A DNA stretch of 64,000 nucleotides from Streptomyces inhibens. Lineage in GTDB: Bacteria > Actinomycetota > Actinomycetes > Streptomycetales > Streptomycetaceae. Below, piece after piece: positions 2,038 to 19,519 of this stretch. The DNA is taken from NCBI RefSeq assembly GCF_003389455.1, contig NZ_QUAC01000219.1:1-64000 (forward strand), written 5' to 3'. Each line of letters starts with the position of its first letter. Positions within the stretch are counted from its first letter, which is position 1. The notes beneath the pieces were generated by a model. It had not been told where the DNA came from. It worked only from the letters and a program-made list of their open reading frames with translations, and did no database searches. The position numbers and the translations under genes were made by a program.

Positions 2038-2158
2038 GCGCCGGGGCGGGCGGGGGCGCGGGCCGGTCGGTGCCGTACGGCGGTCCGGTCCGGTCCGTGC
2101 CGTACGGCGGGCCGGCCGGTGCGCCGTCAGAGGTGAATTCACTTAGGGGGGATCTCGT

Positions 2159-3337: not shown

Positions 3338-3373
3338 GCATCGGGGCTGTGCCGTAAGGGAGTTGGGGGACAG

Positions 3374-3565
3374 ATGAAGATCACGGTGGATGACGGGCTG
3401 TGCGACGGGCTGGGGCAGTGTGCCCTGGTGGCGCCCGAGGTGTTCGCGCTCGATGACGACGAGCGGCTGGTGGTGGCGCCGGAGCCGGCGCGGGAGCTGG
3501 CGGGCAAGGTGGCGGCCGCGGCGCGGGCGTGTCCGGTGCGGGCCATCTCGGTCGAGGAGTCCTGA
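3374..3565 (+). CDS. 3Fe-4S type ferredoxin
   Basis: 63 residues, with the Streptomyces P450-ferredoxin pattern: Cys10 and Cys16 in CDGLGQC and Cys53 in ACPVRAISV. The position between Cys10 and Cys16 where a 4Fe-4S ferredoxin would carry a fourth cysteine is occupied by other residues, indicating a 3Fe-4S cluster. GGGGGA stands before the ATG. It sits between the P450 and its reductase and almost certainly passes electrons from the latter to the former. Confidence 0.95.
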   Translation: MKITVDDGLCDGLGQCALVAPEVFALDDDERLVVAPEPARELAGKVAAAARACPVRAISVEES

Positions 3566-3568
3566 GCC

Positions 3569-4792
3569 GTGCGCGAGGTCGTCGTGGTGGGGGCGGGCCT
3601 GGCGGGTGTGCGGGCCGGTGAGTCGCTGCGGGCGCAGGGGTTCTCCGGCCGGCTGACGGTGGTGTCGGACGAGCGTGAACTGCCCTACGACCGGCCGCCG
3701 CTGACCAAACAGGTGGTCTCCGGGACGATGACGGAGTCCGATATCCGGCTGGCGGGCGCCGAGGACTTCGGCGCCCGCTGGATCCGGGGGACCGCGGCCG
3801 TCGGTCTGGACCGGGAGCGGCGCCGGGTGCGGCTGGCCGACGGTGCGGAGCTGCCGTACGACGGGGTGGTGCTGGCGCCCGGGGCCAAGGCCAGGGCCTG
3901 GTCAGGGGCGGTGCCGCCGGCCGGGGTGCTGACGGTGCGGGGGCTCGATGATGTCCGGAGGCTGCGTGTCGCAGTGGACGGTGGGGCTCGTGAGGTGGTC
4001 ATTGTCGGGGCGGGGTTCGTCGGGGTGGAGCTGGCGTCGTCGCTGAGCGGGCTCGGGGTGCGGGTCACGCTGGTGGAGCCCTTCGGCCGGCCGTTGCGGG
4101 CGCTGGGCGCGGCGGTTTCCGGGGTGGTGGCAAAGGCCGCGGGCCGGGCGGGGGTCGTGGTGCGGCTGGGGACCGGGGTGCGGGGGTTTCGCGACAGCGG
4201 CGGCCGGGTCGCGGCTGTGGAGCTCGTCGACGGGAGTGTGCTGCCGGCGGCGCTGGTGGTGGTGGCGATCGGGATGGTGCCGGCGACCGGCTGGCTGGCG
4301 GGGTCGGGGCTGGCGTTGCCGGCCGGCCGGATCCACTGTGATGAGCGGCTGTTCGCCCGGACCGCGGGCGGGGCGGGTGCGCCGGATCCGGGTGTGGTGG
4401 TGGCCGGGGACGCCGCGTGGTGCGATGCGGTGCGGGCGGCGGACGGGCCGGTTGCGCTGGAGCACTGGAGCAATGCGGCCGCGCAGGGTGAGCTGGCCGC
4501 GCGCAATCTGCTGGCCGGGCCGGCGGCGGCCGAACCGTACGACCATGTCCCCTCGTTCTGGACGGCGGCGTTCGGGCTGCGGATCAAGTCGGTCGGTCTG
4601 CCGGGTACCGGTGACCGGACGGTGGTCGAGGCGGGGGATCCGGCCGTCGGCGCGGTGCTGGTGGCGCACTACCGCGAGGGGCGGCTGGTCGGTGCGGTGA
4701 GTGTGAATCAGGGGCGGTTGCTGTCGGCGTATGCGCGGCGGTTGCAAGAGGAACGGATGGTCGGCCGGGGAAACAAAACCGTCGGAACGTGA
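3569..4792 (+). CDS. FAD-dependent ferredoxin reductase
   Basis: 407 residues. Two dinucleotide folds are visible: VVVGAGLAGVRAGESL at the N-terminus for FAD and VVIVGAGFVGVELASSL (around residue 140) for NAD(P)H. Further family markers are YDRPPLTKQ, the ATG-like motif VVAIGMVPATGWL, and VVAGDAAW with EHWSNAAAQG near the C-terminus. This is the rubredoxin/ferredoxin-reductase type that serves bacterial P450s. The GTG start lies 3 bases after the ferredoxin stop, so the P450, ferredoxin and reductase genes form one operon. Confidence 0.93.
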   Translation: MREVVVVGAGLAGVRAGESLRAQGFSGRLTVVSDERELPYDRPPLTKQVVSGTMTESDIRLAGAEDFGARWIRGTAAVGLDRERRRVRLADGAELPYDGVVLAPGAKARAWSGAVPPAGVLTVRGLDDVRRLRVAVDGGAREVVIVGAGFVGVELASSLSGLGVRVTLVEPFGRPLRALGAAVSGVVAKAAGRAGVVVRLGTGVRGFRDSGGRVAAVELVDGSVLPAALVVVAIGMVPATGWLAGSGLALPAGRIHCDERLFARTAGGAGAPDPGVVVAGDAAWCDAVRAADGPVALEHWSNAAAQGELAARNLLAGPAAAEPYDHVPSFWTAAFGLRIKSVGLPGTGDRTVVEAGDPAVGAVLVAHYREGRLVGAVSVNQGRLLSAYARRLQEERMVGRGNKTVGT

Positions 4793-5386
4793 ATCCCCCG
4801 TTAAGTTTTCCAATACCACGGAACTTTTGTTGTTGACCCCTTCGGGAAGCGACTTGGTCACGTGACCTATCGCACATTCCCGTGACGCCCCTATGTGGCT
4901 CTGGTAACGTTTTTATCGCGCCTCCCGAGGGGGCGGTGCAGGCCTTGTGGGGGAGTACGACGAGGTGCTCGCCGAATGAATGTGGCCTGTTCCTGTGAAT
5001 GCAGGTATCGGGGGATCATTTGCTACGGGGGACGGCATGTGTAGCGGCTTCATCGGTGTCTGAAAACGGGACCTCCCGCTGTGTGGAAGTGTGTCCCGGT
5101 CTTCTGTGTCCGTAGGTCGAGTGCGCCGGTGCGACGGCGACTTGTGACCTTTTGGCGGACGTTCGTCAACTCATTCAACTCATGCGTCGGGAACCGGCAG
5201 ATGGTCGGTTCCGGCGTCCCTGAAGTGAATTCCTGAACGGCATGCGGGGACGGGCTTCACCATGTCCGTTTTCCTTTGCCGTGGGTTTTCCAGCCTTCCG
5301 TGATGCCATTTTCTGCTGCCATTTTCCAGTATTTTCCATGGCCGGTAAAAGGTGGCTTCCGAGTGCTCAGAAACGAGGAGAGAACC
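4793..5386 (+). promoter_or_regulatory. 594-base control region before the polyketide operon
   Basis: No convincing ordinary gene. It holds the second copy of the TetR-type palindrome (4856-4867), a tandem 9-base repeat TCAACTCAT (5166-5174, 5175-5183), a small inverted repeat GGAACCG/CGGTTCC (5190-5212), and five TTTTCC motifs beginning at 5269, 5286, 5308/5309, 5322 and 5332 in an unusually AT-rich stretch just upstream of the ACP gene. A 22-codon Cys-rich reading frame (4976-5044) is noted among the findings. The long leader suggests layered transcriptional control. Confidence 0.6.
4856..4867. promoter_or_regulatory. Palindromic operator candidate, copy 2
   Basis: GGTCACGTGACC is a perfect 12-base palindrome, flanked as CTT...TAT. 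It matches copy 1 at 304-321 (core GGTCGCGTGACC) at all but one position of the core. It lies 64 bases after the reductase gene and about 520 bases before the ACP gene. Confidence 0.6.
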
Positions 5387-5965
5387 ATGCAGAACCCCTT
5401 CGAGACAGAGCAGATCCACGAGATCGTGCGAGAGGGCCTGGCCCAGGTGCTGGGCAGCAGCACCGACGAGATCACCCCGGACGCCACCCTTGTCGCCGAC
5501 CTCGGCGCCGAATCGCTCGACCTGGTCGAATTCCGCTTCGAGATGGAGACCAAGCTCGGCGTGGCGCTGCCCAAGTCGAATGTGCTCGACCTGCTGGCGA
5601 CGGCGCTCGGCGGTTCGGAGCAGCTCTACGACGACCGGGGCGGGATCTCCGAACTGGCCGCGGAGGTGCTGCGGCGCAGCGCGTTCGGCTACTCCGTGGA
5701 GCAGGTGCACGCCGGTATGCGCCCGTACGAGGTCGCCGCGGCGGCCACCAGCGCGCACTGGGCCGCCTTCACCCACACGATCTTCGACCACCTCCCCGAG
5801 GTCTGCACCGAGTGCGCCGCCGACAAGGCGCAGATCGCCGTCTCCGGCAAGGCCCGGTGCGCCGGTTGCGGTGCCGCGCTGGAGCCGGCCACCGGCGACG
5901 AGGTGATGGCCGACGGCGTCCGTACGGTGCTGGAGGCGCTGGGGCACGCCCAGCCCGTGGGCTGA
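5387..5965 (+). CDS. Acyl carrier protein with C-terminal zinc ribbon
   Basis: 192 residues, far longer than a stand-alone ACP (about 80). Residues 8-80 form the carrier domain, with the phosphopantetheine site GAESLDLVEF (Ser43). A linker and helical region follow, then a four-cysteine pair of knuckles: CTEC (Cys140, Cys143) and CAGC (Cys158, Cys161), characteristic of a zinc ribbon. The ATG at 5387 follows GAGGAGAG; an upstream in-frame ATG at 5276 would add a Phe/Pro-rich stretch with no counterpart in ACPs. It carries the growing chain for the downstream ketosynthases. The ribbon may be a docking module; its function is unknown to me. Confidence 0.9.
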   Translation: MQNPFETEQIHEIVREGLAQVLGSSTDEITPDATLVADLGAESLDLVEFRFEMETKLGVALPKSNVLDLLATALGGSEQLYDDRGGISELAAEVLRRSAFGYSVEQVHAGMRPYEVAAAATSAHWAAFTHTIFDHLPEVCTECAADKAQIAVSGKARCAGCGAALEPATGDEVMADGVRTVLEALGHAQPVG

Positions 5966-6023
5966 CGCGGATGCCTGTGCGGAAGGCGTCGCTTGTCGTG
6001 CGAGTCGTGCGAAAGGAAAGCAA

Positions 6024-7328
6024 GTGAACCCCCACATACCCACCGGGGACGGCCAGGAGGTCGTGGTGACCGGCATCGGCCTGGTCGCCGGCCGGCTGAC
6101 CGACCCCGAGTCGTTGTTCGACCATCTCGCGCAGGGGCACACGCTCATCACCGAGCACCCGCTCCACCAGGAGTGGGGCGTGCCCTGCGCCGTCTCGGCG
6201 CATATCGACCCCGGGGTCCGGGCGGCCCTGGAGGACGCGGTGCCCGAGGAGGCCGGATCCCTGGGGCCGGCCGGCACCCTCGCCTGGCACGCCGCCGCCC
6301 AGGCCTGGGAGCGCAGCGGGCTGCCGCGGCGGCTCGACACCGAGCGCGGCGGCGTCTTCCTCGCGTGCAACCGGATGGTCATGGAGCCGGCCGAACTCGC
6401 CGGCCTGGCCGGCCATGTGGACTTCGCGGCCGGCGCACTGGACCTGGACAGCTATCTGGACGCGGGCGGGCCCGACGCCGAGCGCTACGAGCGGATCCAG
6501 CCGGACACCGCCACCGTGCGGCTGGCCGACTACTTCGGCGCGGCCGGTGTCCTGGAGACGCATGCGGACGCCTGTGCCGCGGGCGGGATGGCGATCGGCA
6601 GCGCCTACCGCTACATCCGCAGCGGCGTGCTCGACGTGGCGCTGGCCGGCGGCGCGGAGAGCCTGACGACGCTCACCTCCGTCACCGCCTTCTACGGGGT
6701 GGGCGCGCTCGCGCCCGCCGACGGGCAGGACGCCGGGCGGATCAGCCGCCCCTTCGACAAGGACCGCTCGGGGTTCGTCATCGGCGACGGCGCCGCGTTC
6801 CTGGTGCTGGAGTCGCGGGCGCACGCCGAGGCCCGCGGCGCCCGCATCCTGGCCCGGGTCGCCGGCTACGCGGGGGTGACCGAGGCGGTGAAGATGACGT
6901 CCAGTTCGCGGGACGGCTCGGACTACGCGGAGTGCATGCGGGCCGCCCTCACGGACGCCGGGCTCACCCCGGGCGACATCGACCATGTCAATGCGCACGG
7001 CACCTCGACCGAGGCCAACGACACCTGCGAGGCCGCGGCCCTGCACCTCGTGTTCGGGGAGCGGACCGCCGGTATCCCGGTCACCGGCAACAAGTCGGCC
7101 ATGGGGCACTCCCTGGCCAACAGCGGTGCGGCAGAAGCGGTGCTCTCGGTGCTCAGCCTGCAGCGGCAGTCCGTACTGCCGACCCTCAACTTCGCCGAAC
7201 CCGACGAGGTGACGCGCGGGCTGGACATCGTCACCGAGCAGCGCAGTACGCCGGTGACCGCCGTACTGTCGAACTCCTTCGGCTTCGGCGGCCAGAACTG
7301 TTCCCTGATCCTGGCCCAGGCGGGGTGA
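6024..7328 (+). CDS. Beta-ketoacyl-ACP synthase (KS-alpha of pair 1)
   Basis: 434 residues, a full-length KASII-type condensing enzyme. The active-site triad is intact: Cys184 in ADACAAGGMAIGSA, His in NAHGTSTEAND, and His in NKSAMGHSLANSG. The C-terminal SNSFGFGGQNCSLIL glycine-rich strand is present. The GTG start follows GGAAAG. It decarboxylatively condenses malonyl-ACP with the growing acyl chain. The next gene, overlapping by 4 bases, encodes a ketosynthase-like protein without catalytic residues, so the two look like a KS/chain-length-factor heterodimer. Confidence 0.93.
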   Translation: MNPHIPTGDGQEVVVTGIGLVAGRLTDPESLFDHLAQGHTLITEHPLHQEWGVPCAVSAHIDPGVRAALEDAVPEEAGSLGPAGTLAWHAAAQAWERSGLPRRLDTERGGVFLACNRMVMEPAELAGLAGHVDFAAGALDLDSYLDAGGPDAERYERIQPDTATVRLADYFGAAGVLETHADACAAGGMAIGSAYRYIRSGVLDVALAGGAESLTTLTSVTAFYGVGALAPADGQDAGRISRPFDKDRSGFVIGDGAAFLVLESRAHAEARGARILARVAGYAGVTEAVKMTSSSRDGSDYAECMRAALTDAGLTPGDIDHVNAHGTSTEANDTCEAAALHLVFGERTAGIPVTGNKSAMGHSLANSGAAEAVLSVLSLQRQSVLPTLNFAEPDEVTRGLDIVTEQRSTPVTAVLSNSFGFGGQNCSLILAQAG

Positions 7329-8533
7329 GCGCACCGATGACGAATCTTGATGCGGTGCGGCTGACCGCACCCGGCTTATACACGGCGGCGGGGGTGGATC
7401 CGGCGTCCCTGTGGGAGGCCCTGGTGGCCGGCAAGGACACCGGCCGGCCGTACGAGGTCGCCTCCGGGCCGTGGCCCGGGACGGACACGGTCTTCCTCGT
7501 CGACGACCCCGATGCCGCCACGCTGGGCGTGCACCGAAGGGTGCTGCGTACCTCGGAGAAGCAGGCCCGGATGGCGCTCTACGGCGCCCGGCTGTCGCTG
7601 GCCGGGCCGGCCGGGAGCGGCCCGGTGGGCGGTGAGCGCTGGGGGCTTTATCTCGGACTGCCCACGGTGGACGAGGAGTTGCTGCGTTTCACGGCGCTCG
7701 ACGGGCTGCGCGCGGCCGCCGGTTCGCCGGACCGGGTGGCGGCGCTCTACGCCCGGGAGGTCCCGCCGTTCAGCGGACTGTCCCACCTCAACAGCACCGC
7801 CGCCGCGCATATCTCGGCCGCCTTCGGGCTGACCGGGGCGATGGCCGCGTACTCGCCGTTCTCCGACGCGGGGCTGGAGGCGCTGATCGACGGGGTGCTC
7901 TCGGTCGCCGAGGGTGAGAACGAGGCGGCCGTCGTCGGAGCGGTCAGCCCCAAGGTGCATCCGCTGCTGTTCCCGCAGTACGAGGAGCTGGGCTGGAACG
8001 GCGCCACACCGGGCGAGGGGGCCGCCTTTCTGCTCGCCGCGCGGGCCGAGGACGTGCCCGTATTACAGGACGCGTCGGAGCACGGCGGGACGGCGGCGGC
8101 CCGGCTGGCCGGCTACGGGCGGGCGTTCGGCGCGGAGGGCGCGGACCGTACGGCGGCGATCGCCGAGGCCGTGCACACGGCGCTGGAGATGGCCCGTACC
8201 GACGCCGACGGCATCGGCTGGGTGCTGCCGGACGCCGTGTGGACGACGGCCGGTGAACAGGCCCAGCGCGCCGCGCTCGACCAGGTCTTCGCGGGTGCCG
8301 CCGAGCGGCCCGCGGTGATCGGCACCGAGCCTGCCACCGGTGTGCTCGGACCCGCCCACCCGCTGGCCCATGTGCTGCTGGCGCTGCACGGCCTGGCCGG
8401 CGGCCGGCGCCTGGCGGCGGCCGAGGGCGGCGCGGTGCGGGAGGAGGCGCTGCCGGTCTCCCGGGCGCTGGTGCTGGCCTGCGGTGCGCGCGGTCAGGTG
8501 TGCGCCGTCGTACTGGAAGGAGCCGGGAGATGA
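7325..8533 (+). CDS. Degenerate ketosynthase, chain-length-factor-like (pair 1)
   Basis: 402 residues from the GTG that overlaps the preceding stop (an ATG at 7337 is the alternative). The thiolase-fold outline is recognisable: NSTAAAHISAAFGLTGAMAA, DAGLEALIDGVLSVAEGENE and AAVVGAVSP match the nucleophile elbow and following strand of ketosynthases. However, the nucleophile position reads SPFSDAG (Cys replaced by Ser) and neither catalytic His motif is recognisable. It is therefore probably a KS-beta partner of the preceding enzyme. It contains two TTA leucine codons (7376-7378 and 8063-8065), the only ones I noticed in the cluster. The next gene overlaps its stop by 4 bases. Confidence 0.78.
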   Translation: MSAPMTNLDAVRLTAPGLYTAAGVDPASLWEALVAGKDTGRPYEVASGPWPGTDTVFLVDDPDAATLGVHRRVLRTSEKQARMALYGARLSLAGPAGSGPVGGERWGLYLGLPTVDEELLRFTALDGLRAAAGSPDRVAALYAREVPPFSGLSHLNSTAAAHISAAFGLTGAMAAYSPFSDAGLEALIDGVLSVAEGENEAAVVGAVSPKVHPLLFPQYEELGWNGATPGEGAAFLLAARAEDVPVLQDASEHGGTAAARLAGYGRAFGAEGADRTAAIAEAVHTALEMARTDADGIGWVLPDAVWTTAGEQAQRAALDQVFAGAAERPAVIGTEPATGVLGPAHPLAHVLLALHGLAGGRRLAAAEGGAVREEALPVSRALVLACGARGQVCAVVLEGAGR

Positions 8534-9819
8534 CCCGCCGTGTCGTGGTGACCGGACTGGGCGCCGTCTGCGGACTGGGGCTCGACTGGCAGACCATGTG
8601 GGAGGGGCTGTGCGAGGGGCGCTCGGCGATCCGCGCCTGGCAGCTGCCCGGTATCGAGGACTTCCCGGTGCGCTATGCGGCGCCGGTCGACGACGAGGCG
8701 TTCGCGCTGCGTCACGGCGTCGACGACGGCCTGGACCGGCCGATGGAGCGGCGGATGCGGTTCGGGCTGGCGGCCGCCGGGCAGGCGCTGGCCGACGCGG
8801 GCCTCGACACCGCTGCCGGCGCCGGGCGCCCGGTGGGCAGGGTCGGCACGGCCGTCGGCTCGGGCGTACCCGAGCGTGACCCGTACGAACTCCTTGCCGC
8901 CTTCGGCGAGGACGGCCGGCCGAGCTGGCAGGCGCTCTACGCCCGGCGCGCCGAACTCGACCGCGCCGGCGGCCTGTTCTGCACCAATGACGCGCTGGCC
9001 ACCGGGATCGCGGCCCGTCACCGGCTGCGCGGGCCGGCGCTCAACTTCAGCACCGCCTGCGCCGGGGCCACCCACGCCATCGGCCATGGATTCCGCATGA
9101 TCCGGCGCGGTGAGGTGGACGCGATGCTGGTGGGCGGCGCCGACTCGGTGCTGAATCTGCCCACCATGACCGGCCTCCATCTGCTCGGTGCGCCGTCGAC
9201 GTCCGAGCTGTTCGGGGACCGGCTGTGCCGCGCCTTCGACCGGGACCGCAGCGGTCTGGTGGCCGCGGAGGGCGCGGCGATGCTGGTACTGGAGAGCGAG
9301 GAGAGCGCCCGGCGGCGCGGCGCGGAGATCTACGCGGAGGTGGCCGGCTTCGGCAGCTCCCTCGACGCGTACCAGGTCACCGCCCCGCATCCGGAGGGCA
9401 AGGGCGCCGCGCTGGCGATGAGCCGGGCGCTCGCCGACGGTGCGGTGGAGCCGGACGAGGTGGACTCGGTCAATGCGCACGGCACCTCGACCCCGCTCAA
9501 CGACCCGATCGAGACCCGTGCGATCAAGGACGTCTTCGCCGGTGGCGGGCGCTACCGGAAGCTGGCGGTCACCGCCAACAAGACGATGCTCGGCCATCTG
9601 ATCGCCGCCGCCGGTGCGCCCGAGCTGATCGCCACCGTGCTGTCCGTACGGGACGGCATCGTGCCCCCGACGCTGAATCTGGAGAACCCGGATCCGGCCT
9701 GCGATCTCGACTACGTCCCTGACAAGGCCCGGCACCAGGAGGTGTCGGTGGCAGTGAGCAATTCCTTCGGCTTCGGCGGACTCAACGCCAGTCTGGTGGT
9801 GCGTGGTTATGAGCACTGA
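8530..9819 (+). CDS. Beta-ketoacyl-ACP synthase (KS-alpha of pair 2)
   Basis: 429 residues from the ATG overlapping the previous stop. The catalytic triad is intact: Cys177 in FSTACAGATHAIG, His in NAHGTSTPLND, and His in NKTMLGHLIAAAG. The C-terminal SNSFGFGGLNASLVV strand is present. It is clearly distinct from the first KS, so this is not a recent local duplication. The following gene again encodes a catalytically dead homologue and overlaps by 11 bases, giving the gene order KS, pseudo-KS, KS, pseudo-KS. Confidence 0.94.
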   Translation: MTRRVVVTGLGAVCGLGLDWQTMWEGLCEGRSAIRAWQLPGIEDFPVRYAAPVDDEAFALRHGVDDGLDRPMERRMRFGLAAAGQALADAGLDTAAGAGRPVGRVGTAVGSGVPERDPYELLAAFGEDGRPSWQALYARRAELDRAGGLFCTNDALATGIAARHRLRGPALNFSTACAGATHAIGHGFRMIRRGEVDAMLVGGADSVLNLPTMTGLHLLGAPSTSELFGDRLCRAFDRDRSGLVAAEGAAMLVLESEESARRRGAEIYAEVAGFGSSLDAYQVTAPHPEGKGAALAMSRALADGAVEPDEVDSVNAHGTSTPLNDPIETRAIKDVFAGGGRYRKLAVTANKTMLGHLIAAAGAPELIATVLSVRDGIVPPTLNLENPDPACDLDYVPDKARHQEVSVAVSNSFGFGGLNASLVVRGYEH

Positions 9820-11131
9820 CATCCCGACAACGAACCCTTCCGATGACGCGATCGTGGTGACCGGCATCGGTGCGGTGCTGCCCACCGGGCGCGGCCCGCA
9901 GGCCCTGTGGTCGGCCTGGCGGGAGGCGCAGCCGGCGCTCTCCCCCTACCGGGACCCCTACGTACGGACCCGGAAGATCACCCACTTCGGCCATGTCCCC
10001 GACGAACTCCAGCAGCAGAGCCGCGAGAGCGTCCCCCACAAACTGCGGAAGTTCGGCACCCCGTTCACCTTCAACGCGGTCCTCGCCGCGCAGGACGCCA
10101 TGGACGCGGCGGGGGAGGGCTGGCAGTCGATCCCCGAGGAGCGGCGCGGGCTCTATGTCGCCCAGGACGACTCCACCGAGCTGAGCGCCGCGGCCTTCCA
10201 CAAGGCCCTCGACAAGGCCCGCTCGGACCCGTCGGCGCAGGCGGGGGTGGATCTGCAGCGCCTGGTGGCGGAGGCGTTCGGCAACGCGGCGACCTTCAAT
10301 CCGTTCACCGTCATCAGGGCCCTCAACAACAACACCCTCGCGCTGATCAGCATCGCCCAGCGGTTCCGCGGCGACTGCGCCGCGTTCGTCCAGGACGCCG
10401 GCGCCGCGCTCGGCGCCCTGCAACGGGCCGCCTTCACCCTCCGCCAGGGCCTCTGCGACACCGCCCTGGTGGTCGGCGCGGGCAGCTTCAACGAGCCCTT
10501 GAAGCTGGCCGCGCAGTACCGCGCCGGGCATCTGAGCGCGGGCGGCCGCGGCGGGGCTGCGCTGCGCAGCTTCGACGCCGAACGGGACGGTACGGTCCTC
10601 GCCGAGGGCGCGGTCGCGCTCGTACTGGAGCGGGCCGGGGACGCCGCACGGCGCGGCGCACGGCCGCTGGTGGAGATCCTGGGCGCCGCGCTGCGGCCCG
10701 CGGTGGACAGCGGCATCGGCCCGTCCACCCTGGCCGAAGGGCCCCGCGGTCTGCTGGCCGCACACGGCCTGACCCCCGACACGCTGGGGGCCGTGCTCGC
10801 CGACGGCAAGGGCACGGTCCACCATGACGCCGCCGAGGCCGAGCTGCTGCGGGCGCTGCTGAAGGACAGCGGTGTCCCGGTCGCCTCGCTGCGCCCGGTC
10901 ACCGGCACCCTGGGCGCCGCCGGACCCCTGGCGGAACTCGCCCTCGCCCCGGCCCTGTTCGAGGCGGACGAGCTGCCGCCGATCGCGCATCTGCGGACGC
11001 CGCCGGACGACGGCACCGACTTCGTCATGGGCACGCCCAGGAAGCGGCGGATCGACTCCGTACTGAGTCTGCACAGCACGTTCAACGGATTCGCGGGAGC
11101 CGCGCTCGTCCAGCGGCCGCACACGCCATAG
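9809..11131 (+). CDS. Ketosynthase-like chain-length factor (pair 2)
   Basis: 440 residues, with ketosynthase N-terminus IVVTGIGAVLPTGRGP and C-terminal LHSTFNGFAGAALV. The nucleophile elbow reads CAAFVQDAGAALGAL, so the catalytic Cys is replaced. The first His motif reads ADGKGTVHHD instead of NAHGT, and the second reads TGTLGAAGPLAEL without Lys or His. All three catalytic positions are lost, as in KS-beta/CLF subunits of type II polyketide synthases. The ATG at 9809 (two codons inside the longer GTG frame) lies within the end of the preceding KS gene, indicating coupled synthesis of a heterodimer. Confidence 0.85.
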   Translation: MSTDIPTTNPSDDAIVVTGIGAVLPTGRGPQALWSAWREAQPALSPYRDPYVRTRKITHFGHVPDELQQQSRESVPHKLRKFGTPFTFNAVLAAQDAMDAAGEGWQSIPEERRGLYVAQDDSTELSAAAFHKALDKARSDPSAQAGVDLQRLVAEAFGNAATFNPFTVIRALNNNTLALISIAQRFRGDCAAFVQDAGAALGALQRAAFTLRQGLCDTALVVGAGSFNEPLKLAAQYRAGHLSAGGRGGAALRSFDAERDGTVLAEGAVALVLERAGDAARRGARPLVEILGAALRPAVDSGIGPSTLAEGPRGLLAAHGLTPDTLGAVLADGKGTVHHDAAEAELLRALLKDSGVPVASLRPVTGTLGAAGPLAELALAPALFEADELPPIAHLRTPPDDGTDFVMGTPRKRRIDSVLSLHSTFNGFAGAALVQRPHTP

Positions 11132-11151
11132 GGCCACGAGGGGACCACACC

Positions 11152-14034
11152 ATGTCGCAGTTCACCGCATTCGTGCAGCCCGAGATGGGGCGGATCTTCG
11201 CCGCCCTGGGGCTGGACGTCGCATACGTCCGTGCCGAGGGCAACACCCTTTACCACCGCGACGAGCAGGGCACCGAAATCCCGGTCCTCGACCTGATGGG
11301 CGGTTACGGCTCCCTGATCTTCGGCCACAACCACCCCGAGATCGTCGCCCACGCCCGGTCCCTGCTGGACGCGAACCGGGCCGTGCACGCCCAGTTCTCG
11401 CTGCGCGGCGAGGCCGGGCGGCTCGGCGCGGCGCTCAGCGAGGTCGTCCGCCGGGAGACCTCGGTCAAGGAGCCCTACCTCGCCACCTTCGGCAACAGCG
11501 GCGCCGAGGCCGTCGAGGCGGCCGTCAAACACGCCGAACTCGTCCGGGTGCGCAAGGTCATGGCGCTCGCCGACGAGATCGCCGCGCACACCGAGGCCGC
11601 CCGGGACGCCGTACGCCGCGGCGAGGCCCGCCTCGACCCGGACGTCGGACGGCTGCCGGCGGTCCTCGCCCATGGGCCGCAGGCCGACGGCATCGATGGG
11701 CTGCTGGCCGCGGTCGAGGCGCACAACGCGGCGGCGATCGGCACCCGGCCGCTGTTCCTGGCGCTGGAGCGCTCCTTCCACGGCAAGCTCGTCGGCAGCG
11801 TCCAGCTGACCTACAACAGCGGCTTCCGCGCCCCTTTCCAGAACCTCGGTGCGCGGGTGCGCTTCGTCCCCATGGACCGGCCCGAGCTGCTGGACCGGAT
11901 CGCCGACGACGAACGGGTGGTGCTGCTCGACACCGAGATCGACCAGGGGCGGGTGCGGATCGTCGAGCGCGACTTCCCGGCCATCACCGCGTTCCTGGTC
12001 GAGCCGGTGCAGGGCGAGGGCGGAATCCATGCGCTGACGACGGAGCAGGGCCGGGCCATCCGGCTGTTCTGCAACAAGGTCGGCACCGCGCTGATCATCG
12101 ACGAGGTGCAGAGCGGCATGGGGCGCTGCGGCGCGTTCCTGGCCAGTTCGCTCATCGGGCTGCGCGGCGACTACTACACGCTGTCCAAATCGCTCGGCGG
12201 CGGGCTCGCCAAGATCTCCGCGATGCTGGTGCGCCGGTCCCTCTACGAGGGCGAGTTCGACCTGATCCACAGCTCGACGTTCGCCATGGACGACTTCTCC
12301 TCGTCGATCGCGCACAAGGTCGTCGAGATGCTGGAGGCCGACGACGGACAGGCCTACCGGCAGGTCACCGAGCGCGGCGCGCGGCTCACCGGCATGCTCA
12401 CCGACCTCCGAGCCGCCTACCCCGACATCATCGAAGACGTCCGCGGCAAGGGCCTGTTCCTCGGCGTCCAGCTGCGCGACCAGGCCCAGGCCCGCTCCAT
12501 GGTGCTGCGCGGCAGCGCCTACACCGGCTCGCTCGGCTATCTGCTGTCCGGCTATCTGCTGCGGCAGGAAGGCATCCGGATCGCGCCGACCGGCAGCGCC
12601 GGCAATGTGCTGCGCATCCAGCCGTCCGCCTACCTCACGGACGAGGAGATCGAGCGGCTGCGCGGCGCGCTGGACCGGCTCTGCCGCATCCTGCGCTACG
12701 AGGACACCCTGCATCTGGTGCACCCGGCCAGCGACCGCAGGATCGCCAAACCGCGCGCGCAGATCAAGGACTTCCGGGGCGCGGTGGCCGGGTACGAGCA
12801 GGGCGAGCGGCGCCCGGTGACCGGACCGACCCGCAAGGTCGCATTCCTCAACCACCTCATCGAGCCCGCGCATCTGCGGCAGGTGGACCCGGCGCTGGCC
12901 GACCTGAGCGATGCGGCGCTGCGCTCCTTCGTGCTCGGCATGGACCCGGTGAAGAAGGCGGCGCCCTATCCCGGCGTCCGGATCGACTCACCGCTCGGCA
13001 GCGCCGTCGAATTCTCCCTCTACCCGCTGATGGTGGGGTCCGAGCAGATGGGCCGCTACCTGGCCACCGGCGATGTCGCCGGGATCCGTGCGGACATCGA
13101 GGAGCGGGTGCGGGCGGCACGCGAGGACGGCTGTGAGGTCGCGGGCCTGGGGATGTACACCTCCATCGTCACCCACAACTGCACCTCGTTGAAGGTCCCG
13201 GGCATCGCGCTGACCTCCGGCAACGCGCTGACCGTCGCCATGGGCGTGCAGGCGATGGAGCGGGGTGCCGAGGACCGCGGCCGGCGGGTCGAGGACGCCA
13301 CGCTGGCCGTGGTCGGCGCGGCCGGCAATATCGCCTCGGTCTACAGCCAGCTGTTCGCCGAGCGGCTGCGCCGTATCGTGCTGGTCGGCAGCCGCCGGGA
13401 CGGCTCGGCCGGGCGGCTGCGGAACACCGTGCACGGCATCTACCAGGAGTGCTGGTCGCGGATCGCGGCCGGCGGTGAACTGGCCGGGATTCCGGCGCGG
13501 TTGGCCGAGGAGCCGCTGATCACCAAGTGGCTGGCCGAGGGCCCGGCCGACGACGCGGGCCGGGGCCGGGCGATCGCCGAGTACCTGGAGGAGCGCTACG
13601 GGACCGACCCGTTCCTGACGGTCACCCAGGACAGTGCGGCCCTGCGCGAGGCGCAGCTGGTGCTGTGCGCCTCGAACAGCCCCGAACCGTTCCTGACCGG
13701 CGAGCACTTCGCGCCGGACGCGGTGATCTGCGATATCGCCGTACCCAACAACGCCGTGCCCGGACTGGCCGCACAGCGGCCCGACCTGGCGTACATGCTC
13801 GGTGGCATCGTCGCCACGCCGAATGGCGAGAGCCTGCACCCCTCGGCGCGCGCCTTCCTGGAGGCGGGCCAGCTGTTCGCCTGCATGGCCGAGACCGCGC
13901 TGATGGGGCTGGCCGGCATCGACCACCACTACTCCTACGGGAACATCACCCGCCAACAGGTCATCGACATCGCGGCGCTGGCCGAGGCGCACGGTCTGCG
14001 GCTGGCCGACTACAAGAGCGCGCACTCGGTGTGA
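11152..14034 (+). CDS. Class III aminotransferase fused to acyl-ACP-reductase (AAR-like) domain
   Basis: 960 residues. Residues about 1-510 are a fold-type I class III aminotransferase: DLMGGYGSLIFGHNHP, FGNSGAEAVEAA, LVEPVQGEGGIHA, LIIDEVQSGMGR, and PLP-binding Lys346 in LSKSLGGGL. Residues about 560-960 resemble cyanobacterial long-chain acyl-ACP reductase: GLGMYTSIVTHNCTSL, the nucleotide-binding VVGAAGNIASVYSQLFAERL, GGIVATPNGESL, and LFACMAETALMGL with Cys911 at the place of the acyl-accepting cysteine. The predicted joint reaction is reductive release of the ACP-bound chain as an aldehyde, then transamination to a primary amine. PigE and TamH are analogous two-domain enzymes. A 15-bp-arm hairpin follows the stop. 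Confidence 0.88.
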   Translation: MSQFTAFVQPEMGRIFAALGLDVAYVRAEGNTLYHRDEQGTEIPVLDLMGGYGSLIFGHNHPEIVAHARSLLDANRAVHAQFSLRGEAGRLGAALSEVVRRETSVKEPYLATFGNSGAEAVEAAVKHAELVRVRKVMALADEIAAHTEAARDAVRRGEARLDPDVGRLPAVLAHGPQADGIDGLLAAVEAHNAAAIGTRPLFLALERSFHGKLVGSVQLTYNSGFRAPFQNLGARVRFVPMDRPELLDRIADDERVVLLDTEIDQGRVRIVERDFPAITAFLVEPVQGEGGIHALTTEQGRAIRLFCNKVGTALIIDEVQSGMGRCGAFLASSLIGLRGDYYTLSKSLGGGLAKISAMLVRRSLYEGEFDLIHSSTFAMDDFSSSIAHKVVEMLEADDGQAYRQVTERGARLTGMLTDLRAAYPDIIEDVRGKGLFLGVQLRDQAQARSMVLRGSAYTGSLGYLLSGYLLRQEGIRIAPTGSAGNVLRIQPSAYLTDEEIERLRGALDRLCRILRYEDTLHLVHPASDRRIAKPRAQIKDFRGAVAGYEQGERRPVTGPTRKVAFLNHLIEPAHLRQVDPALADLSDAALRSFVLGMDPVKKAAPYPGVRIDSPLGSAVEFSLYPLMVGSEQMGRYLATGDVAGIRADIEERVRAAREDGCEVAGLGMYTSIVTHNCTSLKVPGIALTSGNALTVAMGVQAMERGAEDRGRRVEDATLAVVGAAGNIASVYSQLFAERLRRIVLVGSRRDGSAGRLRNTVHGIYQECWSRIAAGGELAGIPARLAEEPLITKWLAEGPADDAGRGRAIAEYLEERYGTDPFLTVTQDSAALREAQLVLCASNSPEPFLTGEHFAPDAVICDIAVPNNAVPGLAAQRPDLAYMLGGIVATPNGESLHPSARAFLEAGQLFACMAETALMGLAGIDHHYSYGNITRQQVIDIAALAEAHGLRLADYKSAHSV

Positions 14035-14037
14035 GCC

Positions 14038-14075
14038 GCGGGTGCCGCGCACGGTGAGCAGTGCGCGGCACCCGC
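14038..14075. terminator. Strong hairpin inside the biosynthetic operon
   Basis: GCGGGTGCCGCGCAC (14038-14052) and its exact complement (14061-14075) form a 15-bp stem with an 8-base loop, starting 4 bases after the aminotransferase/reductase stop and 33 bases before the FabG start. No T tract follows. It may terminate, attenuate, or protect the upstream transcript end. Confidence 0.7.
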
Positions 14076-14107
14076 CCCTCCCCTCCCCACAGATTCGAGA
14101 GGACGCC

Positions 14108-14854
14108 ATGGAATTCGAAGGCCAGGTGGCGCTGGTGACCGGCGGCAGCCGGGGCATCGGCCGCGCGATCGCCGTACGGCTCGCTGAGGCCGGGTGCGAT
14201 ATCGCGCTCAACTACCGCAGCGCCACGACCGAGGCGGAACAGGTCGCCGAGCGGATAGCCGGGCTGGGCCGCAAGGTCGAGCTCTACCAGGGGGACATCT
14301 CCGACCCCGAGGTGCCGCACACGATCGTGACCGGTGTACGCGCCTCCTTCGGGCGGATCGATGTGCTCGTCAACAACGCCGGGATCACCCGTGACGAACT
14401 GCTGGTCAACCAGAGCCTCAAGGACATCGAGCAGGTCCTGGCCACCAACCTGATCGCCCCGATGCTCACCGTGCAGGCCGTGGCGCCCGTCATGCTCCGC
14501 CGGCGGTACGGACGGATCGTCAATATCTCCTCGTCCGCCGCCTCCAAGCCCGGCCGGGGTCAGTCCAACTACGCGGCGGCCAAGGGCGGTCTGGAGGCGT
14601 TCACCAAGGCAATGGCCGTGGAACTCGCCTCCCGCGGGATCCTGGTGAACGCGGTCGCCCCCGGAGTGATCAACACCGAGATGACGGACGCCATCCGCAG
14701 CCACGGCGAGGACGAGATCATGCGCCGGCTGCTGGTGAAGTCCTACGCCGAACCCGAGACGATCGCCGACGCCGTGGCCTACCTCGCCAGCCCCCGCAAC
14801 ACGTACACGACGGGCGAGGTACTCCACGTCGACGGCGGACTGAAGATGGCGTGA
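14108..14854 (+). CDS. 3-oxoacyl-ACP reductase, FabG-type SDR
   Basis: 248 residues of classical short-chain dehydrogenase. Cofactor motif VTGGSRGIGRAIA, NNAG at DVLVNNAGITRDEL, catalytic Ser in NISSSAASKPG, and YAAAKGG (Tyr-x-x-x-Lys). GITRD and the C-terminal TGEVLHVDGGLKM are FabG hallmarks. The start follows GAGAGGA. It most likely reduces the beta-keto groups made by the ketosynthases. It lies after the intra-operon hairpin, so its level may differ from that of the synthase genes. Confidence 0.92.
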   Translation: MEFEGQVALVTGGSRGIGRAIAVRLAEAGCDIALNYRSATTEAEQVAERIAGLGRKVELYQGDISDPEVPHTIVTGVRASFGRIDVLVNNAGITRDELLVNQSLKDIEQVLATNLIAPMLTVQAVAPVMLRRRYGRIVNISSSAASKPGRGQSNYAAAKGGLEAFTKAMAVELASRGILVNAVAPGVINTEMTDAIRSHGEDEIMRRLLVKSYAEPETIADAVAYLASPRNTYTTGEVLHVDGGLKMA

Positions 14855-14864
14855 GAGGCCGGTC

Positions 14865-15671
14865 ATGAGTGAATACGACGCACACCACGCCCCGGCGCCC
14901 GGCGAATTCGCGGGCCGGACCGCCGTCGTCACCGGCGCGGCCCAGGGCATCGGCCGCGAGGTCGCCCTCCTCCTGGCCGCGTCCGGCGCCGCGCGGCTCA
15001 TCCTGCTGGACCGGGACGCCGCCCAACTGGACACCGTCGTCAAGGAAGTGGGCGAGCTGGGCGCGGTCGCCGTGCCCGTCCCCGTGGACCTGCGCGAACG
15101 CGACCTCGTACGCACCCGGCTCCGCGCCGAACTCCGGGCCGCCGGCAAGCTCGACATTCTCGTCAACAACGCCGGAGTGGCCGACGAGAACGGCCCCGAC
15201 GACGAGACCACCTGGCTGCGGGTGCTGGACATCAACCTGCACGGCACCTTCGCCGTCACCGCCGCCTGCCTGGAATACCTCGTCGACAAGGGGCGCATCG
15301 TCAATGTGTCCTCCATCCTCGGCAAGGCCGGCAAGATGCGGAACACCGCCTACTGCGCCTCCAAACACGGCCTGATCGGCTACACCAAGGGCCTCGCCCT
15401 CGACCTCGCCGCCCGCGGGATCACGGTCAACGCCGTGCTGCCCGGCTGGATCGACACCCCCATGCTCCGCCGCGAACTCGCCGCCCAGGCCGACGAGATC
15501 GGCGCGGACCCGGCGCGGATGCTGCGCCAGGCCCGTAAGAGCATCCCGCTGCGCCGGCTCGTCGAGGCGCGGGAGGCCGCAGAGCTGATCGGATTCCTGG
15601 TGTCCGACCGCGCGGCCGCCATCACGGCGCAGAGCCTGACCGTCGACGGGGGCTACACCCGTGGGATGTAG
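14865..15671 (+). CDS. SDR family oxidoreductase
   Basis: 268 residues. VVTGAAQGIGREVALLL (NAD(P) binding), DILVNNAGVADENG, NVSSILGKAGKM and YCASKHG give the full SDR catalytic set (Asn, Ser, Tyr, Lys). The C-terminus TAQSLTVDGGYTRGM is typical. It is less FabG-like than its neighbour, and the last 11 bases overlap the thioesterase gene. It may be a second ketoreductase or reduce an imine/ketone after chain release; the sequence does not decide. Confidence 0.88.
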   Translation: MSEYDAHHAPAPGEFAGRTAVVTGAAQGIGREVALLLAASGAARLILLDRDAAQLDTVVKEVGELGAVAVPVPVDLRERDLVRTRLRAELRAAGKLDILVNNAGVADENGPDDETTWLRVLDINLHGTFAVTAACLEYLVDKGRIVNVSSILGKAGKMRNTAYCASKHGLIGYTKGLALDLAARGITVNAVLPGWIDTPMLRRELAAQADEIGADPARMLRQARKSIPLRRLVEAREAAELIGFLVSDRAAAITAQSLTVDGGYTRGM

Positions 15672-16452
15672 CCCCTGGCTGCGCCGGCTGGGGCAGCGTC
15701 CGCCCGGGGCCATGGGGGTCCCCCCTTGCTCCTCAAGAGCTTGGGGGAGGGTGATCTGCTTTCCGCACGCGGGCGGCGGCGCGGGCGCGTTCCGGCCGCT
15801 CGCCAAGGCCGTCGCCGCCTCGCACCCCGAGCGGGCCCGCCCGTACGAGGTGCTGGCGGTGCAGTATCCGGGCCGCCACGACCGCATCCACGAGGAGCGG
15901 ATCGAGGATCTGACGGAGCTGGCGGCCGGGGCGTACCAGGCGCTGGCACCGCTCGCCGACCGGCCGCTGACCCTGCTGGGGCACAGCATGGGCGCGCTGG
16001 TGGCGTACGAGGTGACCCGGCTGCTGGAGCAGGAGGGCGCCGCCCCCGTCCGGCTGCTCGTCTCCAGCGCCTGGGCCCCGTCGCGGGTCACCAACGGCAC
16101 CGTCCACCTACGGGACGACCACGGGCTCGTCGAGGAGATCCGGCGGACGCAGGGCACCGATCCCAGACTGTTGGCGGACCGGGAGGTGCTGGCCCTGGCC
16201 CTGCCCGTGGTGCGCAGCGACTACAAGGCCGTGGAGACCTACCGTCACCGGCCGGGGCCGCCGCTGCGGACGCCGGTCACCGCGCTGCTCGGCGACGCCG
16301 ATCCCCTGGTCGCCGTCGAGGACGCGGCCGCCTGGCGCGGGCACACCACCGGGGACTTCCGGATGCGGATCTTCCCCGGCGGCGACCACTTCTACCTCAC
16401 CGGACACTGGCCCGACCTCGTGGAACGGATCGGCGAGTGCTCGGACCGGTAG
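15661..16452 (+). CDS. Type II thioesterase (with repeat-derived segment)
   Basis: 263 residues. The alpha/beta-hydrolase features of RifR-type editing thioesterases are present: VICFPHAGGGAGAFRPL, YPGRHDRIHEERI, nucleophile GHSMGAL, and FPGGDHFYL near the C-terminus for the catalytic His. These enzymes hydrolyse stalled or wrong acyl groups from carrier proteins. Family members usually begin with a short SPWLRR-type leader running straight into the FPHAGG strand. Here about 16 extra residues (roughly 15-30) are encoded by a palindromic intergenic-type repeat at 15704-15751, in frame. The GTG start overlaps the SDR stop. Confidence 0.88.
   Translation: MGCSPWLRRLGQRPPGAMGVPPCSSRAWGRVICFPHAGGGAGAFRPLAKAVAASHPERARPYEVLAVQYPGRHDRIHEERIEDLTELAAGAYQALAPLADRPLTLLGHSMGALVAYEVTRLLEQEGAAPVRLLVSSAWAPSRVTNGTVHLRDDHGLVEEIRRTQGTDPRLLADREVLALALPVVRSDYKAVETYRHRPGPPLRTPVTALLGDADPLVAVEDAAAWRGHTTGDFRMRIFPGGDHFYLTGHWPDLVERIGECSDR
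15704..15751. repeat. Streptomyces palindromic repeat inserted in thioesterase gene
   Basis: A G/C-rich imperfect stem: CCCCCTTGCTC pairs with GAGCTTGGGGG around a short loop, flanked by GGGGGT and GAGGG. The layout (G run, C run, variable stem, GGGGGAGG) matches a repeat common between Streptomyces genes; a relative lies at 53605-53637 in the opposite orientation. Here it is inside an open reading frame without breaking it. Confidence 0.7.
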
Positions 16453-16486
16453 CGAGTGAGCGAGGGTTCAGACCGGTAGCGAGTGA
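16444..16486. repeat. 16-base direct repeat at cluster boundary
   Basis: GACCGGTAGCGAGTGA occurs at 16444-16459 and again at 16471-16486, separated by 11 bases. The first copy carries the thioesterase stop codon; the second encodes the last residues of the oppositely oriented coupling-protein gene. It marks the junction between the polyketide cluster and the transfer-like locus. Confidence 0.75.
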
Positions 16487-18069
16487 TGGGGCCAGCGGGC
16501 GCGGGCCTGTTCCCGCGAGCGCATGGTCGCCAGCGTCAGCAGGCCGCGCGTACGTCCGGTTTCCAGGAGGCCCGGGAGCGCGGGCAGCGGCGCGAGCGCG
16601 GCGATGTCGTCCAGCACGAGGGTGAGTGGTGGGTCGAGCCGACCGTCAGATGACCGTTCGGCCATGCGGCGGCCGTGCTCGACCACGCTCGAAAGGAGTG
16701 CGGTGAGCAGGGGCATCGCACCCGGGTCGGTACGCGGATCCTCGATGGGGTCGCCTACCACGTAAAGCGTTCCCCCCTCATCGATAAATGATTCAAGGAT
16801 GACCGAATCCGCTCGAAGTGGATTGCAGGCATCCCGGATATGGATCGAGGAGAGGGCGGTCAGCGCCCGGCCGACCAACTCCTTGGCCGCCTCGCGGCGT
16901 TCGGCATGCGCGGTGAGCACGGACTCCAGCTCGCCGGCCTGGCCGCCGGACGCCTTCGGGCTGGTGCGCAGGATGCGTACGGGCTCCTGTGCGGCGCCCG
17001 TGGCATGGGCCCAGCGGTGCAGCTGGCGGAACGGGCGGCTATCCACCGCGGCGGCGTGCAGCCAGCAGCGCAGCAAGGTCTGGGCGGCCTCCGCGACGGC
17101 CGAGTCCACGGCGGCGGCCGGGCGTACCGGAGCCAGCAGGGCGGTGGCGCGGGCCGTGGCGACGGCGAGGTCCGTACAGCCGGAGGTCGGCGACCAGCGC
17201 AGCCGGGCCGGGGTGTCGAGGCGGTGCGTCGGATCGTAGGTCAGCAGCGGCCCGAGCTTGGCGCGGGCGTCCTTGGTCTCGGACCAGAGGGCGGGGTCGG
17301 TGGTGGCGACGATCAGCGGGCCGGGGGCGGCGGCCGCGGTGGCGATGGCGGCGGCGAGCGTGGCGCCGCGGTCGGTGACGAACTCCACCCGGGGCAGGGC
17401 CGGTTCGGTGAGCGGGGTGGTGGCGGCCACCGGGGAGGCGGTGCGCTGTTCCGGTACGGGGCCGGTGGCGGCGGGTTCGACGGGCAGGGGCACGGCAGGG
17501 GTTGCCGGTGGGGCGGGAGTCGCAGGGACGGCCGGCGCGTCCTCGGCGGGCGCCGCGGCCTCCCGGACGGGCCGGGCCCCCGTATCCCGGGCCTTCCGCG
17601 CCTCCCGCTCGGCCTCCCGTTCGGCCTCCCGGGCCTCCCAGGCCGCCTCGCGAGCCTCCCGGGCCCTCGCCCGCCGCGTCGCCCGTACGGCGCGATAGCG
17701 GGTGACCGTCCCCAACGCGAAGATCGTCAGGACCAGCAGCACCATCAGCTCGCCGATGAGGATGCCCCAGAACAGGCCGTAGCCGGACAGCTGGCCCTTG
17801 GGGGCGTCCGGCCAGGCCGCGGCCATGTCGTGCGGCGCCGAGACGAGATGGCGCAGGGCCATCGGCGTACCGGAGTAGCTGACGCCCTCGGGCCAGGCGC
17901 CGTGCGCGAACAGTCCGGCCAGCCCGGTCGCGGTCCACACCAGCAGGGTCAGGCCCAGCAGAAAGGCGAGCAGCCCGACCAGCAGCGAGTCGGGGATGCC
18001 GCGCCCCCGGCCGGCGGGGGTGTCGCGGTAGCCGCGGCCGCCTCGTTCGTTGTCGTATCCGCGCCTCAC
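16468..18069 (-). CDS. VirD4/TraG-like coupling protein homologue without Walker A
   Basis: 533 residues from the GTG overlapping the upstream stop (a GTG at 18099 is possible). Two membrane helices near the N-terminus (LLVGLLAFLLGLTLLVWTAT and a segment from GLFWGILIGEL to LTIFALGTV) precede an Arg/Glu-rich helical stretch, a Pro/Ala linker, and a TraG-like ATPase half: GPLIVATTDPALW, LLTYDP, LVLDDIAALAPLPALP (Walker B) and LLTLATMRSREQARARW. Where VirD4 proteins have the P-loop, this one reads TDRGATLAAAI, so ATP binding is doubtful. It is last in the minus-strand operon and likely bridges substrate and channel as a structural partner. Confidence 0.78.
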   Translation of the reverse strand: MRRGYDNERGGRGYRDTPAGRGRGIPDSLLVGLLAFLLGLTLLVWTATGLAGLFAHGAWPEGVSYSGTPMALRHLVSAPHDMAAAWPDAPKGQLSGYGLFWGILIGELMVLLVLTIFALGTVTRYRAVRATRRARAREAREAAWEAREAEREAEREARKARDTGARPVREAAAPAEDAPAVPATPAPPATPAVPLPVEPAATGPVPEQRTASPVAATTPLTEPALPRVEFVTDRGATLAAAIATAAAAPGPLIVATTDPALWSETKDARAKLGPLLTYDPTHRLDTPARLRWSPTSGCTDLAVATARATALLAPVRPAAAVDSAVAEAAQTLLRCWLHAAAVDSRPFRQLHRWAHATGAAQEPVRILRTSPKASGGQAGELESVLTAHAERREAAKELVGRALTALSSIHIRDACNPLRADSVILESFIDEGGTLYVVGDPIEDPRTDPGAMPLLTALLSSVVEHGRRMAERSSDGRLDPPLTLVLDDIAALAPLPALPGLLETGRTRGLLTLATMRSREQARARWPHHSLPV

Positions 18070-19496
18070 GCCACCGTCTCGCTCGACTCGTCTCTCCACT
18101 GACGCTCCATCGCCATCGCCTCGGCGCGCGCCTCGGCCTCGGCGTCGGCCGCCGCCTCAAGCGCGCGCGCCTCGTCGGTCGGCATCGCGGACGCCTCGGT
18201 CATCGCCCGGTCGGTGAAGACCAGCGGGCGTTCGGCCTCGGTGATGAGGTGTTTGACGACCTGCACATTGCCGTTGACGTCCCAGACCGCGATGCCGGGG
18301 GTGAGGGTCGGAATGATCTCCACCGCCCAGCGTGGCAGGCCGAGCACCCGCCCCGTGGCCCGTGCCTCGTCGGCCTTCTGCGCATAGATGGTCCGCGTCG
18401 AGGCCATCTTCAGGATCGCCGCGGCCTCCCGTGCGGCCGCACCGTCCACCACGTCGCTGAGGTGGTGCACGACCGCCACGAAGGACAGGCCGAGCCGCCG
18501 CCCGAACTTCAGCAGCCGCTGGAACAGCTGGGCCACGAAGGGCGAGTTGATGATGTGCCAGGCCTCCTCGACCAGGAAGATCCGCTTCTTCCGGTCGGGA
18601 CGGATCCAGGTGTGCTCCAGCCACACCCCCACGATCGCCATCAGGATCGGCATCGCGATGGAGTTGCGATCGATGTGCGACAGGTCGAAGACGATCAGCG
18701 GCGCGTCCAGGTCGATGCCCGCCGATGTCGGCCCGTCGAACATGCCGCGCAGGTCACCGTCGACGAGCCGGTCGAGGACCAGCGCCACATCCAGACCCCA
18801 GGCCCGTACGTCGTCTATGTCGACGTTCATGGCCTCCGCCGACTCCGCCTCCGGGTGCCGCAGCTGCTCGACGATGTCGGTCAGGACGGGCTGCCGGTCG
18901 GTGATGGTCTCGTTGACGAAGGCGTGCGCGACCTTCAGGGCGAAGCCGGCGCGTTCGTCCAGGCCGTGGCCCATCGCGACCTCGATGATCGTACGCAGCA
19001 GGGCCAGCTGGCCGGTGGTGGTGATCGACGGGTCGAGGGGGTTGAGGCGGATGCCGCCGTTGAGGGCGGCGGTCGGGTCCAGGCGGATGGGGGTTATCCC
19101 CAGCTCCTGGGCGATCAGATTCCACTCGCCGACGCCGTCCTCACCCTGTGCGTCCAGCACGACGACCTGCCGGTCACGGAACCTCAACTGGCGCAGGACA
19201 TACGTCTTCTCCAGCGCGGACTTGCCGTTGCCGGACTCGCCGAGGACCAGCCAGTGCGGGGCGGGCAACTGCTGTCCGTACAGCTGGAACGGGTCGTAGA
19301 TGTATCCCTTGCCGCTGTAGACCTCACGGCCGATGATCACGCCGGAGTCGCCGAGGCCGGGGGCCGCGGTGGGCAGATAGACGGCCTGGGCCTGGCCGGT
19401 GGAGGTGCGTACGGGCAGCCGGGTCGTCTCCACCTTCCCGAACAGGAAGCTGGTGAACGCGTCGGTGAGCGCTCCGAGCGGATCGATCATGGCCAT
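18066..19496 (-). CDS. VirB4/TraC-like ATPase
   Basis: 476 residues. Walker A GESGNGKSALEK, Walker B RIFLVEEAWHII, and VVHHLSDVVDGAAAREAAAI in the RecA-like core match VirB4-type ATPases that energise type IV secretion. The usual N-terminal VirB4 domain is absent; the preceding gene product (SCO6880 family) may supply it. The ATG at 19496 follows GGGAGG; a longer frame to 19589 lacks plausible sequence. The stop overlaps the next gene by 4 bases. The C-terminus is an Ala/Glu-rich helix. Confidence 0.88.
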   Translation of the reverse strand: MAMIDPLGALTDAFTSFLFGKVETTRLPVRTSTGQAQAVYLPTAAPGLGDSGVIIGREVYSGKGYIYDPFQLYGQQLPAPHWLVLGESGNGKSALEKTYVLRQLRFRDRQVVVLDAQGEDGVGEWNLIAQELGITPIRLDPTAALNGGIRLNPLDPSITTTGQLALLRTIIEVAMGHGLDERAGFALKVAHAFVNETITDRQPVLTDIVEQLRHPEAESAEAMNVDIDDVRAWGLDVALVLDRLVDGDLRGMFDGPTSAGIDLDAPLIVFDLSHIDRNSIAMPILMAIVGVWLEHTWIRPDRKKRIFLVEEAWHIINSPFVAQLFQRLLKFGRRLGLSFVAVVHHLSDVVDGAAAREAAAILKMASTRTIYAQKADEARATGRVLGLPRWAVEIIPTLTPGIAVWDVNGNVQVVKHLITEAERPLVFTDRAMTEASAMPTDEARALEAAADAEAEARAEAMAMERQWRDESSETVA

Positions 19497-19519
19497 GACG
19501 TACGCGCCTCCCAGCGGCT

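Follow-up and report, generated by a model that had tools for sequence, protein, structure and literature searches.

The nine-gene polyketide cluster of Streptomyces inhibens, a very likely ortholog of the streptoaminal cluster stm, and its linked cytochrome P450 block

Streptoaminals and tetrahydroquinolines are small nitrogen-containing antibiotics related to the koreenceines of Pseudomonas. Both the streptoaminals and the 5-alkyl-tetrahydroquinolines (5aTHQs) of Streptomyces nigrescens HEK616 were predicted to originate from a common nine-gene cluster, stm (HEK616_65060-64980; PMC11272600), which is described as containing two sets of ketosynthase (KS) and chain length factor (CLF) together with an aminotransferase (PMC12187902). 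Expression of stm in S. lividans TK23 resulted in the production of streptoaminals, and also of 5aTHQs in combined culture (PMC12187902), and the HEK616 products have been counted among co-culture metabolites (PMC9113425). Here we analyzed a stretch of 64,000 nucleotides from S. inhibens (contig NZ_QUAC01000219.1 of assembly GCF_003389455.1, positions 1 to 64,000), the whole of which is called the window below. Nine of its genes, at 5387-16452, are very likely the ortholog of stm and would make alkaloids of the streptoaminal/5aTHQ type by koreenceine-type logic.

The koreenceine cluster kecA-K, found in Pseudomonas koreensis and in P. putida (PP_2777-2787), is another described system with which the locus can be compared. 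Its first eight genes, encoding an acyl carrier protein (ACP), KS, CLF, KS, CLF, a fusion protein, and two reductases, stand in the same order as in the window (PMC6498172). Its authors proposed that the C-terminal half of KecF reduces, that the N-terminal half transaminates, and that cyclization is non-enzymatic, and they assigned the kec-like clusters of Streptomyces, which are without kecIJK, to clade C (PMC6498172). Comparable clusters number 230, with 23 of these in Streptomyces (PMC10829540). The locus in the window contains the counterparts of kecABCDE (the ACP and two KS/CLF pairs), of kecF (an aminotransferase at the N terminus and an acyl-ACP-reductase-like domain at the C terminus), and, after the latter, of the two reductase genes kecG and kecH. 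The putative export genes kecIJK are absent from the locus, where a thioesterase gene and then opposite-strand genes lie downstream, the search for them having been confined to this locus rather than extended to the rest of the genome. Judging from the published gene lists, and not from the Pseudomonas sequences themselves, the thioesterase and a linked P450 block are features of the window that distinguish it from the koreenceine cluster.

Genome contigs searched with the fusion protein yielded 26 loci, namely 13 from Streptomyces with a full-length fusion (83-88% identity), five from proteobacteria (50-56%), one full-length at 27% from Firmicutes (L023), and seven that were partial. The distant L023 was set aside, as were L019-L022 and L024, which match in the aminotransferase half only, and L025 and L026, whose matches are short and weak. 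In the HEK616 locus (L001, AP026073.1), all nine genes are present at 4178-15275 with order and strand unchanged and 71-91% protein identity, and the locus also shares the upstream P450 block and the genes that follow the cluster; sequence divergence was the only difference seen. The arrangement is not due to chance, since S. nigrescens has the same genes in this order at 71-91% identity. We infer that L001 is stm from the strain, the nine locus tags, the gene content, and our own calculations from the order and relative position of the tags, and this equation draws on the descriptions in PMC11272600 and PMC12187902, including that of an operon of nine genes comprising two KS/CLF sets and an aminotransferase, a description that also fits the window, with the operon judged from gene spacing. 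The assignment rests on the observed gene content, gene order, catalytic residues, and orthology; the S. inhibens copy would, by analogy, produce the same compounds.

Some points weigh against this assignment. The thioesterase is the least conserved of the nine proteins relative to HEK616 (71%), and AP026073 and AP026074 are both named as HEK616 deposits, with the stm-bearing record left unspecified in the available text of the report (PMC11272600). In addition, the linked P450 block could lead to a different final product, a matter that we take up below.

All nine genes were confirmed as open reading frames (ORFs) on the + strand. Their intergenic spacing is -17 to +73 bp, so that they look like a single operon. 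In the region 4700-5500, no sigma-70-like promoter was detected by scanning, and terminator-like sites numbered 1 against 1.2 expected. The initial annotation had read the genes as one ACP, two KS/CLF pairs, a fusion, two ketoreductases, and a thioesterase, and this set is borne out by the Pfam domains (reporting threshold for window proteins, E 0.001) and recurs in HEK616, to which the identities given below for the nine proteins refer. The ACP (5387-5965, 192 aa; PP-binding E 1.3e-9; 88.5%) is of the kecA/stm type and has a C-terminal extension with four cysteines. It is followed by KS1 (KecB-like, 6024-7328; 88.9%), CLF1 (KecC-like, 7325-8533; 80.2% over residues 1-398), KS2 (KecD-like, 8530-9819; 88.6%), and CLF2 (KecE-like, 9803-11131; 85.3%), all four of which match Pfam ketoacyl-synthase (for CLF1, the scan used 7328-8533). 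Both KS proteins are FabF-like (E 3.8e-90 for KS2).

It was also claimed from the sequence that each active ketosynthase is followed by a dead partner, and the catalytic residues agree. In an alignment of 11 sequences from the window, HEK616, and Zoogloea, both KS keep the Cys-His-His triad (C184/H325/H362 in KS1), and both CLF are altered at all three columns, to S/D/V in CLF1 and A/D/T in CLF2; the HEK616 CLFs carry the same residues. The top match of CLF2 in the Protein Data Bank (PDB) was 1tqy_B, a chain of the actinorhodin beta-ketoacyl synthase 2 (E 5.4e-21), and a phmmer search of the PDB with CLF1 found no relative at E 0.001. Classical aromatic type II polyketide synthases (PKSs) have a single minimal PKS with cyclases/aromatases. 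The locus does not belong to that type, having two KS/CLF pairs and no match to a cyclase model among its nine genes.

The KecF-like fusion (11152-14034, 960 aa; 87.2% over 960 aa) had been read as a class III aminotransferase joined to an acyl-ACP reductase, and both halves support this. Aminotran_3 covers residues 23-507 (E 2.3e-57), the nearest solved structure to the N-terminal half is CrmG (E 5.5e-149), and the motif SKSLGGG lies at residue 345, its lysine presumably being the one that binds pyridoxal phosphate. The C-terminal part has no Pfam match at E 0.001; in phmmer searches it matched 4ppm, which we take to be PigE (E 7.7e-15), and the long-chain acyl-ACP reductase 6jzu (E 2.8e-6). 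PigE of the prodigiosin pathway likewise combines a reductase and a class III aminotransferase in one protein, and 4ppm matches both halves of the fusion, but its domain order is opposite and its pathway is different. The NCBIfam PigE model was the top model for the fusion, at 287 bits, well below its cut-off of 850 bits. Among 1617 matching records of a plasmid collection, a single one, a Photobacterium replicon at 42% identity, reaches a coverage of 80% or more of the fusion.

More distant relatives of the fusion occur in other settings. In another Streptomyces (L121, 18-13773), a 46%-identical and near-full-length fusion lies directly after a type I PKS frame with two ketoreductase, two dehydratase, and two ACP domains, and is followed by genes for an MFS transporter and an acyl-CoA-dehydrogenase-like protein; this fusion is apparently a relative of the release enzyme that serves a modular PKS. 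L122 and L124 contain distant fusions (about 680-740 residues aligned at 33-34%), and KS-like sequence occurs in the 20 kb analyzed; distant fusion matches were also found in L123 and L125.

Downstream of the fusion gene are ketoreductase 1 (KecG-like, FabG family, 14108-14854; NISS and YAAAK motifs; 91.1%) and ketoreductase 2 (KecH-like, 14865-15671; NVSS and YCASK motifs; 91.4% over residues 14-268), both matching short-chain dehydrogenase/reductase (SDR) models of Pfam, and a thioesterase (15661-16452; PF00975 E 9.1e-52; GHSMG at 107; 71.1%) that probably has an editing role. As the initial annotation had stated, dehydratase and acyltransferase are absent from the nine genes: in the Pfam scans none of them was identified by a model for a dehydratase, an enoyl reductase, or an acyltransferase, with the qualification that enoyl reductase is named in the Pfam title of adh_short_C2, which the SDRs match. 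If the chain is in fact reduced to that level, enzymes encoded outside the nine genes must carry out the dehydration and enoyl reduction. The fatty-acid enzymes of the host are the likely source of this dehydratase and enoyl reductase, given that stm is functional in S. lividans (PMC12187902).

A route consistent with these genes can be proposed. The two KS/CLF pairs would lengthen a medium-chain fatty acyl starter, linear or branched, while it is bound to the dedicated ACP, adding four malonyl units, a number suggested by our own atom count on the product structures. The oxidation pattern of the chain would be set by the two ketoreductases, together with dehydration and enoyl reduction by putative trans-acting enzymes. 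The C-terminal reductase of the fusion would free the chain as an aldehyde, which the aminotransferase half would convert to a primary amine. Attack of the amine on an internal ketone may then close a six-membered imine, and, judging from the product structures, this may be trapped by a hydroxyl to give a spirohemiaminal or undergo further condensation and aromatization to a tetrahydroquinoline. Release, transamination, and imine formation had already been read from the window in the initial annotation. That part of its interpretation agrees with the koreenceine proposal (PMC6498172) and with the cyclic nitrogen compounds ascribed to stm (PMC12187902); its accompanying view of the pathway as new does not hold.

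The ACP deserves separate mention. Its carrier domain takes up about the first 70 of 192 residues, and the extension beyond contains four cysteines arranged as two CxxC pairs. These cysteines (C140, C143, C158, and C161) and Ser43 are invariant in all nine proteins aligned, one being that of the window, four coming from Streptomyces loci and four from proteobacterial loci, with Streptomyces, Zoogloea, and Cellvibrio among the taxa. The AlphaFold2 model (mean pLDDT 87.6) predicts a folded extension. Foldseek, run with the predicted structure, returned 333 matches, all with E above 0.001; the 50 of these 333 that were listed are chains of carrier proteins or carrier-protein complexes, aligned over 49-62 columns, which is the size of the carrier domain only. 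The counterpart ACP of P. putida, PP_2777, was described as having an unusual predicted structure and as supporting no activity with the enzymes tested (PMC12490732).

Five further ORFs on the + strand precede the ACP gene. The first (332-1393) appears by eye to encode an NAD(P)-binding saccharopine-dehydrogenase-like protein, for which Pfam and NCBIfam gave no match at E 0.001. A TetR-family regulator (1390-2037; TetR_N E 2.4e-9), conserved in the linked loci, is followed by a cytochrome P450 (2159-3337; P450 E 3.6e-37; heme motif FGMGPHFCLG), by a small ORF of 63 aa with three cysteines that looks ferredoxin-like by eye (3374-3565; matches in 10 of the 26 loci), and by a ferredoxin reductase (3569-4792; Pyr_redox_2 E 4e-49), which matches at 78-83% identity in 11 of the Streptomyces loci with the fusion, two of these matches being partial.

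The association of the P450 with the fusion was examined in 295 Streptomyces genomes, where the genus-wide search of this block covered the P450 and the 332-1393 protein. Close matches to the reductase half of the fusion (at least 89%) were found in six genomes, the window genome included, and eight more at no more than 42% identity were not counted as carriers. A close P450 ortholog (at least 85%) was present in the identical six genomes (both in 6, one only in 0, neither in 289; Fisher p 1.1e-12, a naive value that ignores relatedness), and thus the natural cluster may exceed nine genes. Specificity is lower for the 332-1393 protein than for the P450, the former occurring in 17 of the 295 genomes, at 87% or more in the six fusion genomes and at 37-70% in 11 others. 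At the locus level, the P450 lies upstream of the fusion in 10 of 10 Streptomyces loci with enough flank; L003, L004, and L011, whose contigs end near the cluster, are excluded from this count, and L004 retains the end of the ferredoxin reductase. Five of the six carrier genomes are apparently the same assemblies as L002, L003, L006, L009, and L012, and the genome and locus counts are therefore not independent. L007 has the cluster and the P450 block, and the four genes tested from downstream of the cluster are without a match in its available flank, so that the P450 is linked to the cluster by more than a common position on the chromosome. Against a larger cluster are the relatedness of the six co-occurrence genomes, one genome (G194) in which P450 and fusion are on separate contigs and linkage was not seen, and the gap of 594 bp between the block and the ACP gene.

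We tentatively suggest, at somewhat less than even chance, that the Streptomyces unit consists of about 14 genes (332-16452), in which a TetR-controlled module of P450, ferredoxin, and ferredoxin reductase, retained across the genus, would tailor the alkaloid (e.g., by alkyl-chain oxidation or by conversion of a streptoaminal to a tetrahydroquinoline) to a native product not yet described, and the four-cysteine extension would make the ACP a private carrier for the two KS/CLF pairs. An oxidized streptoaminal or 5aTHQ as the natural product, made with the 2159-4792 genes, is accordingly a possibility of similarly limited weight, and it is compatible with stm orthology. The co-occurrence and upstream position just described speak for it. 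On the other hand, stm, described as nine genes, yielded streptoaminals in S. lividans (PMC12187902), HEK616 has the block and yet the products named for this cluster in the text examined are streptoaminals and 5aTHQs (PMC12187902; PMC11272600), and the 594-bp gap counts here as well. Uncharacterized peaks of similar m/z were shown for HEK616 besides the named products (PMC11272600). The portions of the streptoaminal literature examined mention no P450 of the streptoaminal pathway, although the original cluster report may treat the flanks; one paper naming both streptoaminals and a P450 is an editorial, in whose available text the two are unrelated.

A koreenceine-type 2-alkyl-tetrahydropyridine, requiring only two extensions instead of the longer streptoaminal/5aTHQ chain, is improbable as the product. 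The core gene set and order are those of kecA-H, but the ortholog at 71-91% sits in a streptoaminal producer, while the Zoogloea locus (L015) reaches only 39-66%, and the thioesterase has no match in the proteobacterial loci L015-L018 (L014 ends inside ketoreductase 2). An undescribed pathway, which the initial annotation had proposed for want of a known precedent and for which we found no support, is rejected with near certainty, since the gene-order comparison with characterized clusters that the annotation itself had called for found the same synteny, nine genes in order at 71-91%, in stm, and the koreenceine counterpart had been published as well (PMC6498172).

The stm-type cluster is bordered downstream, on the - strand, by TraG/VirB4-like secretion-type genes (16468-22509). 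One of these (19520-21082) has a match of at least 83% in 61 of 61 sampled Streptomyces, the window genome included, and is thus core; L007, in turn, carries the cluster without a match to the four genes tested from this block in its available flank. The possibility that the block makes the cluster part of a mobile element was rejected.

The kind of pathway encoded at 5387-16452 is already known. Its gene set, its products, and a proposal for its mechanism are in print, and a search for a new pathway is unnecessary. The remaining interest lies in the linked P450 module and in the ACP extension. Whether the P450 module belongs to the cluster matters because it was stm, as a nine-gene cluster, that was reported to be expressed heterologously, with 5aTHQs obtained only with co-culture, and the review leaves open the step by which co-culture yields them (PMC12187902).

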